From Halalkalirubrum salinum (GTDB lineage: Archaea > Halobacteriota > Halobacteria > Halobacteriales > Haloferacaceae), in the NCBI RefSeq assembly GCF_005543295.1, contig NZ_SRSG01000004.1, positions 1-50,805 on the forward strand: a stretch of 50,805 nucleotides of DNA, read 5' to 3'. A program made the position numbers and the translations under genes. Shown in pieces: positions 7,943 through 43,702 of this stretch (position 1 is the first letter of the stretch; each line of letters begins with the position of its first letter). Under the pieces are notes generated by a model. The model was given only the letters and a program-made list of their open reading frames with translations, had not been told where the DNA came from and made no database searches.

Positions 7943-7975
7943 ATAAATTCGGCTGTTTTCTTTGGGTCAATTACA

Positions 7976-8353
7976 ATGGTAACGTGGGGAATTTGGGTGG
8001 TCTTGGGCAACGCTGCCTCAGAGTCCATTGACCCAAGGACGGCCGCTGCGATCTCCTACCTCGTCGCGGCGCCCTTTGCACTTGGATTGATCCTGTTTTC
8101 AGACGCATCGCTGTCAATTACTGTCAGAGGTGGCTTGCTCGCTGGCGCGGCTGGATTGTTCACTGGGATCGGCCTTATTTCGATGTACGTCGGCCTCTCT
8201 GGCGGATCGACGACGATCGTCTCCACGATTGGTGCGATGTACTTCGTCGTTGCAGCCATCATTGGTATGGTCGTCCTCGGAGACGAGGTTACACTAACGA
8301 GGCTTACTGGGATATCATTCGCCGTTATTGGGGTCGTTCTGGTCACCCAATAG
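7976..8353 (+). CDS. Half-size EamA-type (DMT superfamily) membrane protein, 5' end unresolved
   Basis: The 125 residues from the first ATG contain one EamA unit. Motifs are TWGIWVVLG at the start, an internal YVGLSGGSTTIVSTI stretch, and a last helix ending in GVVLVTQ. Single-EamA proteins are thought to work as dimers in transport of small metabolites. The ATG at 7976 falls in the middle of the first membrane helix. The same frame stays open back to 7928, and the codons from ATA at 7943 (ATA-AAT-TCG-GCT) would encode the missing half, reading INSAVFFGSITMVTWG. No ATG, GTG or TTG is available there. The true start may be an unusual codon, or the gene may have lost its start. TAATAT at 7914-7919 lies about 25 bases before 7943. 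Confidence 0.7.
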   Translation: MVTWGIWVVLGNAASESIDPRTAAAISYLVAAPFALGLILFSDASLSITVRGGLLAGAAGLFTGIGLISMYVGLSGGSTTIVSTIGAMYFVVAAIIGMVVLGDEVTLTRLTGISFAVIGVVLVTQ

Positions 8354-8446
8354 TGAAATTGAGCACCTATCTCATCGTCTACAAAGGTGAGCGATCGGAT
8401 TCGCACACTCGGTACGGATAAAAACAGGCAACCCAACAGGCCACTT

Positions 8447-9625
8447 TCAATTAGTACTTACAACCTTGATGACGTCGCCCTCGTCAAGTTCGTAGCTGTC
8501 GGAGATTTTTCGCTTCGATCGCGCGTCGACCGCGTGAAGGTAGCCCTCGCCGATATCCGTGTGAACGGCGAACGCGAGGTCCTTTGGTGTCGACCCTTGT
8601 GGGAGCAAGAAGGCATCAGGCAGGACTGTTCCGGTCCCGTCAGTCCACTTCGACTCATTTTGCACTGGGAACGCGGTGAGGTGCTCGAGCAGATCGTACA
8701 CTGCGGTATTAAGTGCGGTCTGAACCCCCGTCCCACCGTAGGTGTCCATGACCTCGCGGATCCGTTCAAGCCCTGCGGTCTGCTCGTCGCTCAGATCGCC
8801 GACAATCGTAAATTCTGGGTCGCCAGGATCGTACTCGATCACGCCAGCCTCTGCGCCTCGTCGCAGCGCCAACTCGCCGTCTGCGGTCGCGGGAACAACG
8901 TATTCGGCGGCCGCTCGGAGCCGATCGATCGTCTCTCGGTCGGCGATGTCGGCTTTGTTCGCGACGAGGACGATCGGCTTCGTCCGCTCGCGAACGTCGG
9001 TCGCAAGCGCCTCGCGGTGCTCGTCGGTCCACTGGATCGGGTCCTCGGGGTACTCGAGCGCTCTGAGACTCGCCGCAACGTCGTGTTCTGTTGCACCAAA
9101 ACCCGTCAACAGTTCTGCGAGCGCCTCGTCAATGTCGAAATCCGGCGATCGCGACTTGCGTTCGATCGACTCCCAGTTCCTGTCGATGATACCCGCGAGC
9201 CACAGGTCGAGCTCTTCGCGGATGAACTCGACATCCGAAACTGGATCGTGGCTGCCGGGTTCGACCGGTTCGCCCTCGGCGTTCGTCGCCCCAGAGGCAT
9301 CTAAGACGTTGACGATCGCGTCGGCGTTCGTGAGTTCGTCGAGGAACTGATTCCCCAGACCTCGCCCTTCGTGTGCGCCGGGAACGAGTCCCGCGACGTC
9401 GATCAGTTCGATCGGGACGTAGCGCTTACCGTCGCGACAGCGGTCGTTCCCACAGCGCTCATCGAGGTCGAGACACGGACACTCGGTCCGGACGGTCGCG
9501 ACGCCCCGGTTCGGGTCGATCGTGGTAAACGGATAGTTGGCGACGTCGACGTCTGCGAGCGTCGCCGCAGTGTAGAAGGTTGACTTCCCGGCGTTCGGCT
9601 TGCCGGCAAGGGCGATCGAAAGCAT
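8447..9625 (-). CDS. ychF: YchF/OLA1-type P-loop ATPase/GTPase (OBG family)
   Basis: This 392-residue protein belongs to the OBG/YchF branch of TRAFAC P-loop proteins. It has G1 GKPNAGKST at residues 8-16, a switch segment YPFTTIDPN, G3 DVAGLVPGAH, and the NKAD motif (VANKADIAD) typical of the family. The C-terminal part is a TGS-like domain with LPQGSTPKDLAFAVH and ends in GDVIKVVS. Members bind ribosomes and hydrolyse ATP or GTP. The family is nearly universal and this copy is full length. The ATG at 9625 starts MLSIALAGKPN; another ATG two codons earlier is possible. It stands alone on the minus strand, 78 bases downstream of the DUF5800 gene. Confidence 0.92.
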   Translation of the reverse strand: MLSIALAGKPNAGKSTFYTAATLADVDVANYPFTTIDPNRGVATVRTECPCLDLDERCGNDRCRDGKRYVPIELIDVAGLVPGAHEGRGLGNQFLDELTNADAIVNVLDASGATNAEGEPVEPGSHDPVSDVEFIREELDLWLAGIIDRNWESIERKSRSPDFDIDEALAELLTGFGATEHDVAASLRALEYPEDPIQWTDEHREALATDVRERTKPIVLVANKADIADRETIDRLRAAAEYVVPATADGELALRRGAEAGVIEYDPGDPEFTIVGDLSDEQTAGLERIREVMDTYGGTGVQTALNTAVYDLLEHLTAFPVQNESKWTDGTGTVLPDAFLLPQGSTPKDLAFAVHTDIGEGYLHAVDARSKRKISDSYELDEGDVIKVVSTN

Positions 9626-34128: not shown

Positions 34129-34686
34129 CTACAGCAGGCCGAGATCGCTCAGCTTTCCGGCGACGGCTTCGACACCGCGTTCGGCATCCTCTGGCGTCTT
34201 CCCACCCGTGATGACGAGTTTGCCCGAGCCGAACATCAACACCACGACATTTGGATCCTCCATCCGGTAGACGAGTCCGGGGAACTGCTCGGGCTCGTAT
34301 TCGACGGCTTCCAGCCCGAGGCCGATCGCGATTGCGTTGAGATTGAGCTGGGACCCAAGATCTGCGCCCGAGACGATGTTCTGGATGGTCAGATCTGGGG
34401 TGTCGGGAACGGGGATTCCGAGATCGCCGAGGCGCTCGAAGACGATCCCGACTGCTTCCTCGAGAGTCGCGATGCTGTTCGCGCCGGTACAGACGATCTT
34501 TCCGGAGCGGAAGATGAGCGCGGTCGCTTTCGGATCGTTCATCCGCAACACGAGGCCAGGGAAGTTTTCTTCGTCGTAGTTCGCCCCACTGAGGTCCATC
34601 GAAAGGGCCTCCAGATCCAGCTCTTGATCGATACCGGTCGATCCAACAACGTTCTGGATTTCGATCGAATCCGTGTAACTAGCCAT
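34129..34686 (-). CDS. tbp: TATA-box-binding protein
   Basis: This 185-residue protein is the archaeal TBP: two direct-repeat halves of about 90 residues. Both have the pattern EIQNVVGST...LDLEALS and TIQNIVSGADLGSQLNLNAIA. YDEENFPGLVLRM and YEPEQFPGLVYRM are the corresponding strands, and IFRSGKIVCTGANS and MFGSGKLVITGGKT close each half. It binds TATA boxes and recruits TFB and RNA polymerase. The ATG at 34686 (MASYTDS) lies 29-35 bases after a TATA-like run, AAATATA. The upstream in-frame ATG at 34698 is only about 20 bases from it and less likely. Confidence 0.95.
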   Translation of the reverse strand: MASYTDSIEIQNVVGSTGIDQELDLEALSMDLSGANYDEENFPGLVLRMNDPKATALIFRSGKIVCTGANSIATLEEAVGIVFERLGDLGIPVPDTPDLTIQNIVSGADLGSQLNLNAIAIGLGLEAVEYEPEQFPGLVYRMEDPNVVVLMFGSGKLVITGGKTPEDAERGVEAVAGKLSDLGLL

Positions 34687-34714
34687 TATATACCCCATAT
34701 ATATGAACTCGCAT

Positions 34715-34721
34715 AAATATA
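34715..34721 (-). promoter_or_regulatory. TATA box of tbp, within an AT-rich start region
   Basis: TATATTT on the coding strand (34715-34721) lies 29-35 bases before the ATG at 34686. TATATATA and TATATAA-like runs also lie between this element and the start codon (34688-34704). They could be extra TBP sites and allow autoregulation. Confidence 0.5.
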
Positions 34722-34821
34722 CCCTACTTGTCCCGACCAATAACTCAAATTATCGGAGATATTGTCCGGTAAATGGGCGCTCAACGGTCACTACGCGTCA
34801 AGTCTCATTGATCAGGTCACA

Positions 34822-39380: not shown

Positions 39381-40001
39381 CTAGTCAAGTTGTTGCTGCA
39401 GGTCATCGCTCGGATAGATGCGATAGGTCCGACCTTGTCGTTCTCGGTACAACAGGCCGCGTTTTTCGAGCGATCGCACTGTCTGGCTCACTTTGCTCTT
39501 TGAGAAATCGGATCGATCGCGCAATTCGATCTGTGTGATTCCGGGAGACTGCAAAACAGGCTCGAGGATGCGTCGTTCGTCATCCGGTAAGAGATCAAGG
39601 ACACGCGTCTGTGGATTTGATTCAAGATTGGTCGATCCATCCTGTGCGTCTGCAATATCCATTGTCGAAGCCGTTCCTTCAGGACCGACCGACGAGCCCG
39701 TCTCTTCGGAGGGTAGGTTCCGATCCGCATGTGCGGTGTTTTCGGTCTCTGTTGCATCAGAGAGGTTGCTCCGAATCAACGCATAGACACTCCCAATCAC
39801 GGCTACGATAAGGAGCGTCCCAAACACGTACCACAACGGATCTGGGCCGTGCATTGTTCCCATCGACGAATCCATCATCGAACCCATCGACTCTTCGATC
39901 GCACGACCTTGTTGGTAGGCCTGCCAGCTCAGAGCCCCGCCGAATGCGAGGACAATTGCGAGCAGTCCGCCAACGATCGTATCTGCTTGACGAGGGTTCA
40001 T
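39381..40001 (-). CDS. Membrane-anchored winged-helix regulator with Met-rich outer loop
   Basis: This 206-residue protein has two membrane helices (about 8-28 and 56-75) and a polar linker (80-125). A C-terminal winged-helix domain follows (about 128-206), with LLPDDERRILEPVL, ITQIELRDRSDFSKSKVSQTVRSLEKRGLLYRE (in pieces) and a wing RTYRIYPSDD. The loop between the helices (34-52) carries Met39, Met42, Met43, Met47, Met50 and His51, spaced as in copper/silver-binding motifs. With the wHTH in the cytoplasm, this loop faces outside. It looks like a one-component transmembrane regulator. The ATG at 40001 (MNPRQADTIV) is preferred to one 22 codons upstream. It lies 67 bases downstream of the M20 peptidase gene on the same strand. 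Confidence 0.8.
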   Translation of the reverse strand: MNPRQADTIVGGLLAIVLAFGGALSWQAYQQGRAIEESMGSMMDSSMGTMHGPDPLWYVFGTLLIVAVIGSVYALIRSNLSDATETENTAHADRNLPSEETGSSVGPEGTASTMDIADAQDGSTNLESNPQTRVLDLLPDDERRILEPVLQSPGITQIELRDRSDFSKSKVSQTVRSLEKRGLLYRERQGRTYRIYPSDDLQQQLD

Positions 40002-40067
40002 TGTTCGACTTTGCGTTGGGAGCGTTGACTGTTCATACGAGAATATTAGGCGCGTGGAGTGAGTCAA

Positions 40068-41345
40068 TTACGATTTGGATAGTGATCGTTCCTTATCAGA
40101 CGAGACCCCCCACGCATTCGCAAGCGCCCACGGCAGTCTGACGAACACCGTTGTGTTCTCAATGAGCGCAGCAACCGTCGTGTACTCGTCGACAGCGTGC
40201 GCGGTATCAGTCCCGACGCCAAACTCAACCGTCTCTATCCCGGCGTTTCTGAGTGCCTTGACGTCGCCGCCGCCGGTTGCGCTGCGACGGACAATCGGCT
40301 CACCTACGACCGTCTCTACGGCCGCCGAAATCGCCGAAACGATCGGCCCGTCGATCGGTTCGTAGGTGCCGATGCTCCAGGAAACGTCAGTGATCTCAAT
40401 CTGTTCGAACTGGTCGAGACACTCGCGGATATCGCCGAGAATCGTCGGCGTATCCACACCCGCGCTCAGGCGGATATCCACGCGCGCGGTCGCATGCTCT
40501 GGAACGCTGTTGACCATTTCGCCGCCCTCGATCGTCCCCACGTTCACTGTCGGCCCTTCGAAGAGCTCACGCGCAGCCGCCTCGCCAAGAGTGTCTGCGT
40601 AGTAGTCGATCGACTCGTCGATGATGGCTCGCACGGCCGGATCAAACTCAAACCGGCGTGCAGGGAGCCGTCGGTTAAGGGCTTCAAGTGCCGAACACAG
40701 CGCGTTGATCGCATTTGTCCCGAGCATGGGTCGCGAGCCGTGAGCCGCCTCTCCAGTCGCCGTCAGCGTAAGCCAGATGCTGCCGCGATCGGCAACGGTC
40801 GTCGAGTATCGGCCGTCTGTACTCGTCGTTTCGCCCACTACACAGGCTTCGGCGTCGATTGCCCCTGCTTCGAGCACAGCTGGCATACCTGCATCGCCGG
40901 CGACCTCCTCGTCGCTTACGAACAGAAATGCGATCGACAGCGGTGGTACTTCGTCCACGCGGACAAACGCTTCGGCCGCCAGCAGCATCGACGCGACAGC
41001 GCCTTTCATGTCCGTCGCGCCGCGGCCGTAGATCCGATCGTCGTCTCTGTCACCAAGCGGGTCGAAGGCCCACTCCTCGGCGGTAAACGGCACGGTGTCG
41101 ACGTGGCCTTGATACAGGAGCGTCCGATCGCTCGCACCGGGAATCCGCGCGAGGAGGTTCGGCTTCTCTGGATCGACCGTAATCCGTTCGGTCTCAATGC
41201 CCAGCGATCCGAGCCGCTCGCCGATCGCGTCGATACTCTCCCGCGTCGTCCCCGGGGGATTCTGCGTGTCGATCGACAACAGCGATAACAGCGTCTCGAC
41301 GTGTCGATCTGCGTCGATCGTCTCGGCGTACTCGATCGCGTTCAT
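40068..41345 (-). CDS. M20-family peptidase (ArgE/DapE/CPG2-like)
   Basis: This 425-residue protein is a dinuclear zinc amidohydrolase. The metal ligands are His in YQGHVDTVP, Asp in GRGATDMKGAVA, and Glu-Glu in FVSDEEVAGDAGM. The dimerisation domain sits in about 190-310 (GEAAHGSRPMLGTNAI), and the last metal His is in GTDTAHAVDEY. The closest families are acetylornithine deacetylase and succinyl-diaminopimelate desuccinylase; without the arginine or lysine genes nearby the substrate is open. The ATG at 41345 (MNAIEYAETI) is preferred to one 18 codons upstream. It is divergent from the sulfur module at 41544. Confidence 0.9.
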   Translation of the reverse strand: MNAIEYAETIDADRHVETLLSLLSIDTQNPPGTTRESIDAIGERLGSLGIETERITVDPEKPNLLARIPGASDRTLLYQGHVDTVPFTAEEWAFDPLGDRDDDRIYGRGATDMKGAVASMLLAAEAFVRVDEVPPLSIAFLFVSDEEVAGDAGMPAVLEAGAIDAEACVVGETTSTDGRYSTTVADRGSIWLTLTATGEAAHGSRPMLGTNAINALCSALEALNRRLPARRFEFDPAVRAIIDESIDYYADTLGEAAARELFEGPTVNVGTIEGGEMVNSVPEHATARVDIRLSAGVDTPTILGDIRECLDQFEQIEITDVSWSIGTYEPIDGPIVSAISAAVETVVGEPIVRRSATGGGDVKALRNAGIETVEFGVGTDTAHAVDEYTTVAALIENTTVFVRLPWALANAWGVSSDKERSLSKS

Positions 41346-41510
41346 GTGCGTGTGTACGCGCTGAGCGGTATAATTATTGTGCCCACAAAACAAAACCATG
41401 CTGCAATACGCAGTCCCAAAATTTCCCGATCTATGCCTCTATTAACATACATTCCTCTTTCATGGGAGGATTTGAAGCTCTCGTGTTATCTTGCACCGAG
41501 TACACAACAT

Positions 41511-41543: not shown

Positions 41544-42737
41544 ATGCAAGAAATGGATTTCCCGACGCCGGCAGAGCCAGTTGAATCGGTTGAGCCCCAC
41601 GAACTGAAAGCCGCGATCGACGCTGGCGAACCGATCACGCTGTTGGACGTCCGAATGGAATCAGAGTACGAAAAGTGGCGTATCGACGGCCAGTCTGTCG
41701 AGTCAATTAATGTTCCGTATTTCCACTTCCTCGACGAAGAAGTCGATGAGTCGGTCCTCGAGCCGATCCCAGATGACCGTCTGGTGACGATCGTCTGCGC
41801 GAAAGGTGGCGCAAGCGAGTTTGTCGGCGGAAAACTGCTCGAACTCGGCTACGACGTGAATAACCTCGCAGAGGGGATGAACGGCTGGGCGAGCATCTAC
41901 GAGGCCGTCGAAGTGACGAACTACGACGGACCAGGGACGCTTCTGCAGTACCAGCGCCCCTCGAGTGGGTGTCTCGCGTACATGGTCTACGACGACGAGG
42001 CGGCTGCAGTCATCGACCCACTGCGGGCGTTCACTGATCGCTATCTCGAGGATGCCGAGGAGTTAGGCGTCGATCTCGACTACGCGTTCGACACGCACAT
42101 CCACGCCGACCACATCAGCGGGCTCCGCGCGCTGGCTGCAGAAGGCGTCGAAGGAGTGATCTCACAGGCAGCGGTCGATCGCGGTGTAACCTACGCCGAC
42201 GAGATGACGCTGACCGAAGACGGTGACGTCTTTGAGGTCGGCTCGATTGATATCGAGACGGTGTTCACGCCGGGACACACGACTGGCATGACCTCGTATC
42301 TCGTTGGCGACTCCCTGCTCGCGACGGGTGATGGCCTGTTCACCGAGAGCGTTGCCCGCCCAGACCTCGAAGAGGGCGACGAGGGCGCACCTGAGGCCGC
42401 GCGCATGCTGTACGAGTCCCTGCAGGAACAGGTGCTCACGCTCCCTGATGACACCCTCATCGGTGGGGCACACTTCAGCGACGCGGCCGAGCCAGCGGCC
42501 GACAAGACCTACACGGCGACGATCGGCGACCTCGTCGAGTCGATGGAGGCACTCCGGATGGATGAAGACGCGTTCGTCGAGCTCATCCTCTCGGACATGC
42601 CCCCACGACCCGCGAACTACCTCGACATCATCGAGACGAACCTCGGCCAGCAGTCTGTCGACGACGAGGAGGCGTTCACCCTCGAACTCGGTCCGAACAA
42701 CTGTGCGGCGAGTCAGGGCGCGCTAACCGAGGAGTAA
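41544..42737 (+). CDS. Rhodanese and metallo-beta-lactamase-fold persulfide dioxygenase-like fusion
   Basis: This 397-residue protein starts with a rhodanese domain (about residues 10-128) with active Cys85 in VTIVCAKGGASEF. It continues with a metallo-beta-lactamase domain (about 140-395). The metal site is THIHADHISG, and later GHTTGMTSYL, GDGLFTESVARPD and LIGGAHFSDA. The enzyme type is ETHE1-like persulfide dioxygenase, which turns glutathione-type persulfide or related sulfane sulfur into sulfite. The rhodanese part can move sulfur from or to thiosulfate. The order rhodanese first, then MBL, is the reverse of many bacterial fusions. It is first in a four-gene run and is followed after 3 bases by the YeeE-like genes. 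Confidence 0.88.
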   Translation: MQEMDFPTPAEPVESVEPHELKAAIDAGEPITLLDVRMESEYEKWRIDGQSVESINVPYFHFLDEEVDESVLEPIPDDRLVTIVCAKGGASEFVGGKLLELGYDVNNLAEGMNGWASIYEAVEVTNYDGPGTLLQYQRPSSGCLAYMVYDDEAAAVIDPLRAFTDRYLEDAEELGVDLDYAFDTHIHADHISGLRALAAEGVEGVISQAAVDRGVTYADEMTLTEDGDVFEVGSIDIETVFTPGHTTGMTSYLVGDSLLATGDGLFTESVARPDLEEGDEGAPEAARMLYESLQEQVLTLPDDTLIGGAHFSDAAEPAADKTYTATIGDLVESMEALRMDEDAFVELILSDMPPRPANYLDIIETNLGQQSVDDEEAFTLELGPNNCAASQGALTEE

Positions 42738-42740
42738 ACC

Positions 42741-43247
42741 GTGCTCTCGATAGTCTCTGGTGTCGAACTCCTCCAGGCGGCCTCGCTTGAGGCACTGTTC
42801 CCGAACGGGATCAGCCGGTACGCGATCGGCGGCCTCTTCGTCGGGCTCGGCGTGGCGACGATCTACCTCGCGACGGGGATCATCGCCGGCGCGAGCACAA
42901 CGCTTGAGTCGACGCTCTCGTACGTCTCCGATCGCTCCCGGTTCAGTAAGTACCGCAGTTCCCGTGACTGGCGGATCGTCTTTGCGCTCGCGACGGTCGC
43001 CGGCGCGGCGATCTGGGCGCTGGCATTTCAGGACGGAATCTGGACCACTGATGTCGGTCTTGGCCGACTGTTCGTCGGCGGGATCCTCGTCGGAATCGGA
43101 ACCCGGATCGGCAAGGGCTGTACCTCGGGCCACGGCGTCTGTGGCGTCGGATCGGCGTCTCGGACCTCCCTCGTCGGCGTCGTGACGTTCCTCCTGACGG
43201 CGATCGTCACCGCACAACTGCTCATGGCTGCCGGGGTGAGCCCATGA
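42741..43247 (+). CDS. YeeE/YedE-family transporter, first half
   Basis: This 168-residue membrane protein has four to five hydrophobic segments. It carries the conserved Cys motif GKGCTSGHGVCGVGSASRTS (in pieces: RIGKGCTSGHG, CGVGSASR), as in YeeE/TsuA thiosulfate transporters. The start is a GTG at 42741, three bases after the stop of the dioxygenase, and the stop overlaps the next gene by ATGA. Full-length YeeE proteins hold two such units; here they are separate genes, which probably pair to form one channel for thiosulfate or another sulfur compound. Confidence 0.85.
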   Translation: MLSIVSGVELLQAASLEALFPNGISRYAIGGLFVGLGVATIYLATGIIAGASTTLESTLSYVSDRSRFSKYRSSRDWRIVFALATVAGAAIWALAFQDGIWTTDVGLGRLFVGGILVGIGTRIGKGCTSGHGVCGVGSASRTSLVGVVTFLLTAIVTAQLLMAAGVSP

Positions 43248-43702
43248 GCGGGCGACATCCCGCCTTCATGCCGGTAGTCGTTCTCGGCGGCCTGCTGTTT
43301 GGGTTTGGGCTCGGCTACAGCCACATGGCCCGCCCAGAGGTCGTCCTTGACTTCCTGCAGTTCACCGACTTCGGGCTGTTGTTCGTCATGTTCGGGGCGG
43401 CGATCGTCACAGGCATTGTCTTCACGATCGCAACGTGGAGCGGCCGACGTGCCCCCCTGACCGGCAAGAGCTACGCCCGCCGGCTGAAGTCCTTCGATCG
43501 GAACGTCCTGATCGGCGGCTCGATCTTCGGTGTTGGCTGGGGAATCTCTGGGATCTGTCCCGGCGCGGCCTACGCCAGCGTCGGGATCGGCAACTACCCG
43601 ATCCTCGTCGCGATCGCCGGCATGCTGCTCGGCGCGTACCTTCAGGGCGTCTGGCGAAGCGAATCCAGCACGAGCGAGACAAACGCTGTCAAGGCGGATT
43701 AA
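43244..43702 (+). CDS. YeeE/YedE-family transporter, second half
   Basis: This 152-residue membrane protein has four hydrophobic segments and the second-half motif GVGWGISGICPGAAYASVG (in pieces: GWGISGICPGA, YASVG), with the conserved Cys. It overlaps the first-half gene by four bases, so the two are probably cotranslated and form one transporter. The C-terminus is short and polar. Together with the dioxygenase the pair suggests uptake of a sulfane compound followed by oxidation. Confidence 0.85.
   Translation: MSGRHPAFMPVVVLGGLLFGFGLGYSHMARPEVVLDFLQFTDFGLLFVMFGAAIVTGIVFTIATWSGRRAPLTGKSYARRLKSFDRNVLIGGSIFGVGWGISGICPGAAYASVGIGNYPILVAIAGMLLGAYLQGVWRSESSTSETNAVKAD

Follow-up and report, generated by a model that had tools for sequence, protein, structure and literature searches.

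The gene at positions 39381..40001 of the minus strand encodes a protein of 206 amino acids (ATG start at 40001) that is probably a minimal transmembrane one-component Cu(I)/Ag(I) regulator of copper and silver resistance. It lies in a window of 50,805 bases, the whole stretch of DNA analysed here, which is one contig of the 3.4-Mb, 62-contig genome of Halalkalirubrum salinum. The protein joins a membrane hairpin to a winged helix, its loop conserves Met and His ligands, its charge pattern places that loop outside, and its relatives are linked to copper genes, a linkage seen in haloarchaea and in weaker form in a second archaeal class. From these features we infer metal binding, specificity for copper and silver, a switching mechanism, target genes and a direction of control. 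Somewhat more cautiously, we lean towards a broader reading in which the family, spanning haloarchaea and the second class, is a kinase-free extracytoplasmic Cu(I)/Ag(I) sensor made of a hairpin, a Met/His loop and a winged helix, and would represent a metal-sensing kind of transmembrane transcription regulator (TTR).

The open reading frame runs where the initial annotation had placed it, and its translation begins with positive charge, followed by a first transmembrane segment (TM1, residues ~8-26; 39924..39980, minus strand), a Met/His loop predicted to lie outside (MGSMMDSSMGTMH, residues 39-51; 39849..39887, minus strand), a second segment (TM2, residues ~57-76; 39774..39833, minus strand), a variable cytoplasmic linker (residues ~78-133; 39603..39770, minus strand) and a winged-helix DNA-binding domain, the most conserved part of the protein (residues ~135-200; 39402..39599, minus strand). 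Hydropathy places one TM segment within residues 6-28 and another within residues 54-81, with no further one towards the C-terminus; in the alignment of relatives, Tyr73 of TM2 and the following Arg77 are identical in 88/88 members. AlphaFold2, run on the 88-row alignment, gives helices at residues 3-40 and 55-92 and leaves residues 41-54 unstructured, in a model that is modest (mean pLDDT 64, pTM 0.27, with values below 50 at residues 93-126 of the linker) and of which the helix boundaries alone are used as evidence. A loop thus separates the two helices, as annotated, while the 19 residues ascribed to it are a loose figure for what can be taken as ~14 unstructured residues or as 25-30 residues between the hydrophobic cores.

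The winged helix that had been proposed from the sequence was confirmed by Pfam, where residues ~140-195 match DUF7343 (E 7.1e-9) and MarR_2 (E 8.1e-9; 36.0 bits against a cut-off of 27), both beyond their curated cut-offs, and MarR itself with 29.7 bits against 24.6. In the MarR dimer fold, N- and C-terminal dimerisation helices flank the wing. Sequence matches of the regulator to MarR structures are weak, and a Foldseek search of the PDB, with the low-confidence AlphaFold2 model as query, returned zero matches at E<=0.001. The Pfam search of the protein gave no match to PF24273 (TRASH) or to a histidine kinase family. With at least one predicted TM region and a predicted DNA-binding domain on one chain, the regulator falls among the TTRs by the criteria tested.

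The orientation of the hairpin follows from its attachment to a DNA-binding domain: the winged helix must face DNA and so lie inside, and two TM segments then put the N-terminus inside and the loop outside. The distribution of Lys and Arg agrees with this prediction. Across the 88 members, the mean count of these residues is 2.44 at the N-terminus, 0.38 in the loop and 1.30 just past TM2, and the two inner sides combined exceed the loop in 88/88. The annotated topology, with the loop outside and the winged helix cytoplasmic, is therefore borne out in every member at the level of topology prediction.

Met39, Met42, Met43, Met47, Met50 and His51 lie in the loop where they had been reported. In the window's protein alone, 5 Met in 22 residues, compared with the frequency of 0.0206 that Met has in ten proteins encoded nearby in the window, give a binomial P of 7e-5, or 0.013 when corrected for 185 windows. 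Met enrichment is shown far more strongly by the family alignment than by this single-protein test. The alignment was made from 93 unique relatives read from their loci, of which five were removed (L060, which starts at a contig end; L061 and L118, each with an internal stop; and L141 and L142, short frames with a non-homologous N-terminus), leaving 88 rows with the window included. The L118 copy (~7956-8519) is open apart from its in-frame stop, which falls on the conserved TM1 Trp.

Among these 88 members, Met makes up 19.7% of the loop (a frequency of 0.197) and His 7.1%, against 0.000-0.008 Met for the TMs, the linker and the winged helix; Cys is absent from all regions counted, and every member has at least four Met and His residues in the loop. 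The initial annotation had proposed alignment of homologs as a check on the Met residues, and the outcome differs by position. Met43 is Met in 88/88, and most other positions are largely kept: Met39 is Met in 67/88 (with a gap in 17), Met42 in 76/88 (His in 9), Met47 in 62/88 (His in 6), and His51 is His in 78/88. Met50, by contrast, is not conserved, being Met in just 34/88 and Val in 43. Entropy is lowest in the winged helix (0.40 bits), followed by the loop (1.06), TM2 (1.34), TM1 (1.57) and the linker (2.54 over residues 80-133), which ranks the loop as less conserved than the winged helix and more so than the TMs and the linker. A Met/His ligand set is thus conserved on what alignment and charge pattern predict to be the outer side.

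The family is widespread in haloarchaea, with matches in 136/391 genomes; its named homologs are haloarchaeal without exception, and public records label it 'MarR family transcriptional regulator'. Matches that appeared to be limited to the HTH (query residues ~80-200) were considered as other architectures and rejected, since most of these frames show the full TM hairpin and Met/His loop. Many loci are on plasmids, and annotated plasmid records place the regulator near permease, SHOCT, DUF302, thioredoxin, plastocyanin/azurin, HMA and P-type ATPase genes. The neighbouring permease belongs to PF03773 and bears two YHS stretches (for example, L106:5481-6875), which makes it a possible metal exporter. 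An AsnC neighbour bears a TRASH domain, and some of the islands that hold the regulator contain such AsnC-TRASH genes.

A search for linkage to CopA-type pumps was another check proposed at the outset; linkage to P-type ATPases was found, and it extends to a wider putative copper-handling set that was counted by sequence match (P-type ATPases, YHS permease, SHOCT, cupredoxin, DUF302 and TRASH). The count took one locus for each distinct protein, provided that the locus spanned 7 kb or more (84 plus the window; L061, L118, L141 and L142 were kept here), and used as queries proteins from annotated loci of the regulator family (five of six records). These queries were also run against 40 control stretches, each 16 kb long and lying ~100 kb away on the same contigs; a second control consisted of 20 stretches around genes matched weakly, mostly via the winged helix. 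At least one copper-handling family lies within 6 kb in 73/84 loci, compared with 2/40 displaced controls and 0/20 stretches around other winged-helix genes; the remaining 11/84 loci have no listed copper gene within that distance. By family, the counts within 6 kb, each against the 40 displaced controls, are 39/84 vs 1/40 for P-type ATPases, 36/84 vs 0/40 for the YHS permease, 47/84 vs 0/40 for SHOCT, 38/84 vs 0/40 for a Met-rich small protein, and 21/84 vs 0/40 for both cupredoxin and DUF302. Fisher's test gives P 6e-19 for the copper linkage (computed with 72 rather than 73 loci and thus slightly conservative), a value that overstates independence because the loci share descent and the queries were drawn from loci of the same family.

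Weight therefore rests on the contrast with the controls and on the variety of arrangements. The YHS permease stands directly upstream on the same strand, with gaps of 123-172 bases, in 32/84 loci; elsewhere, an opposite-strand P-type ATPase lies a few hundred bases upstream (e.g., L122, L130 and L139), or SHOCT and the Met-rich small protein follow downstream of the regulator. The small protein is rich in Met and His, looks exported and has no Pfam match; it is encoded at L106:7769-8089 and, on another contig of the window's genome, at G000:C25:104645-104938.

Could the loop respond to oxidation, with copper genes linked because copper stress is oxidative? The loop is Met-rich and Cys-free, methionine oxidation under copper stress has been described in E. 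coli (PMC9302797), and thioredoxin and universal-stress-protein (Usp) genes also occur among the regulator's neighbours. We nevertheless regard such a Met-oxidation switch as unlikely: the frequent replacement of Met by His would keep a metal ligand and not the sulfoxide chemistry, a pattern that fits a metal site better; His51 is retained in most members; and metal transporters and metal-binding proteins dominate the neighbourhood.

The same neighbourhood bears on a relay, in which the loop docks a partner carrying the metal signal (the YHS permease or the Met-rich small protein) and senses no free metal. Both candidates are frequent neighbours, the permease mostly directly upstream, and the Met-rich small protein is present elsewhere in the window's genome, so that it may still serve as a partner there. 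This reading is also improbable, for members without nearby partners, including the window's, retain the loop; the sole PF03773 find in the window's genome is a 311-aa frame on contig C17, not the ~460-aa YHS type; and the second class keeps the loop beside other neighbours.

The window's own copy is an orphan, with no copper family genes found within its 50.8 kb. Just upstream lies an M20 peptidase gene (40068..41399, minus strand), which is not among the copper-handling neighbours of the relatives, and downstream a convergent universal-stress-protein gene; farther away are genes for a TrmB-type regulator, rhodanese/MBL and sulfur-transport proteins, a TATA-binding protein (TBP) and an MFS transporter. 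The TBP gene (34129-34740, minus strand; PF00352, E 3e-56) is near stress-protein and sulfur genes. At 41544-43702, a rhodanese-MBL fusion gene precedes two genes for YeeE-type sulfur transport (one assigned by Pfam, the next by eye), possibly forming a sulfur-handling operon. Copper genes are found on other contigs of the same genome. On C20, an AsnC-TRASH-like regulator and an HMA protein accompany a CopA-like ATPase (63% identical), so that this pump has another candidate regulator beside it; C25 holds the Met-rich small protein paired with SHOCT, as well as another P-type ATPase. Given this separation, the regulator would act in trans in the window organism.

Upstream of the regulator, a 12-codon open reading frame (39998..40036, minus strand) ends in a TGA that overlaps the regulator's ATG (ATGA). 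An ATG at exactly -35 is present in 55/88 members, the window included, against a mean of 0.8 at other offsets, and in 54/55 it opens such a 12-codon frame with the overlapping TGA; the encoded peptide is not conserved. Ahead of the frame, at ~-78 to -58 from the regulator's ATG (40059..40079, minus strand), is a conserved promoter-like element that overlaps the end of the peptidase gene. We considered this element as an operator and dropped the idea, since permease promoters carry a similar element equally far from the permease ATG; the element, ~23-43 bases before the ATG of the short frame and so at a spacing close to that before the permease ATG, is instead read as a core promoter. A weight matrix built from it scored above 16.5 at the regulator's own upstream copy alone, with lower matches scattered and also present in controls, and this search found no operator common to the regulator and copper genes. 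The arrangement suggests that the transcript may start at the short frame and that the regulator may be reached by termination-reinitiation.

That the protein controls something else and merely rides in plasmid copper islands, with a structural Met loop, would suit the many plasmid loci, the peptidase gene beside the window copy and the shared operator that the weight-matrix search did not find, but it is very unlikely, as the linkage recurs in several different arrangements and in the second class, and the loop has lower entropy than either TM helix.

When the phylum was searched with a profile, distant homologs came up in another archaeal class, 21/59 of whose genomes have a match. Most follow the order TM-loop-TM-winged helix, their loops reading HHYMMM, HHMMM, HMMM or PHMMM, for example; among the paralogs are ones with Cys-Met loops (CTMM) and ones without a Met cluster. 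A P-type ATPase match occurs in just 6/16 of the larger stretches from this class (L199, L259, L261, L262, L263 and L267), so that the numbers outside haloarchaea are small and the linkage there is weaker. At L199, L259 and L267, P-type ATPase and SHOCT genes are both nearby, together with a protein that we take to be DUF411-like; the L199 pump has an N-terminus rich in His and Met, which presumably recalls CopB. Phylum relatives of similar build without a Met cluster in the loop (L252-L254, L256 and L257) have no P-type ATPase match in their stretches; YHS is matched at L254, and at L258, where the relative is longer, P-type ATPases are matched weakly. The Met/His loop is thus a subfamily trait, and pump linkage tends to accompany it. 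Paralogs of the second class at L260, L234, L271 and L267 have the loops CTMMHPS, RCSMM, NTCFGAFYGF and QSCEAWMYR, respectively, and such differences suggest that the same membrane winged-helix frame may have been adapted to other signals.

The initial annotation had called a one-component membrane regulator of this sort unusual, a view that does not hold for transmembrane one-component regulators as such: TTRs are a common kind, with 50,302 in one survey (PMC10269533). In the main text of that survey, the words 'metal', 'copper' and 'MarR' never occur, and in the open-access literature, so far as its text is available, we recognised no description of a metal-sensing transmembrane one-component regulator. 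TTRs are thus a known kind, and a metal-sensing member is what we did not find described there. Like the TTRs CadC/ToxR and ArnR/ArnR1, the regulator carries membrane segments and a DNA-binding domain on one polypeptide and would act from the membrane; it differs from them in that its presumed sensor is a Met/His-rich loop of ~14-30 residues and its winged helix is C-terminal. In archaeal ArnR, the HTH is N-terminal and two TMs are C-terminal, with a HAMP-like and a sensor domain also present (PMC6396743).

By analogy, the nearest functional model is CusS, a periplasmic Cu/Ag sensor in which a loop Met triad and a His stretch are reported to be jointly needed (PMC10100754). CusS senses Cu(I)/Ag(I) through extracytoplasmic Met/His sites (PMC10100754), as the regulator is predicted to do; in contrast to CusS, the regulator would work without a kinase or response regulator and has its DNA-binding domain on the same chain. 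Copper control in haloarchaea has been assigned to an Lrp-TRASH regulator, named VNG1197C (PMC3600143). With CopR/CopT-type Lrp-TRASH regulators, the protein shares a winged-helix/HTH domain and a tie to copper ATPases, whereas those have a C-terminal Cys TRASH domain and no membrane hairpin, and the regulator is predicted to be membrane-bound and is Cys-free. MarR and DUF7343 proteins likewise share the winged-helix DNA-binding domain, and the regulator differs from them in placing a membrane hairpin with a Met/His loop ahead of it. In the available text of a 2022 survey of Haloferax mediterranei, the annotated metal-responsive regulators are not copper-related (PMC9240420). In silver RNA-seq of Haloferax alexandrinus, a COG0701 permease rises by 3.49 log2 at 0.5 mM silver, and several HTH proteins are also induced (PMC10694973); we could link none of these genes to the regulator family, and they are not counted as evidence.

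We propose that the side chains of the loop Met and His residues would act as ligands for Cu(I) or Ag(I) on the outer side of the membrane. Binding may then alter the packing of the helical hairpin or the dimer state, and this change would shift DNA binding by the C-terminal winged helix at the inner face. Copper-efflux and copper-handling genes, which in most relatives are the neighbouring ones, would thereby be switched. If this is true, archaeal copper control would gain a second, extracytoplasmic layer that needs no two-component system, and the sensor would be small enough for a few point mutants to probe how a metal signal passes from a membrane hairpin to a DNA-binding domain.
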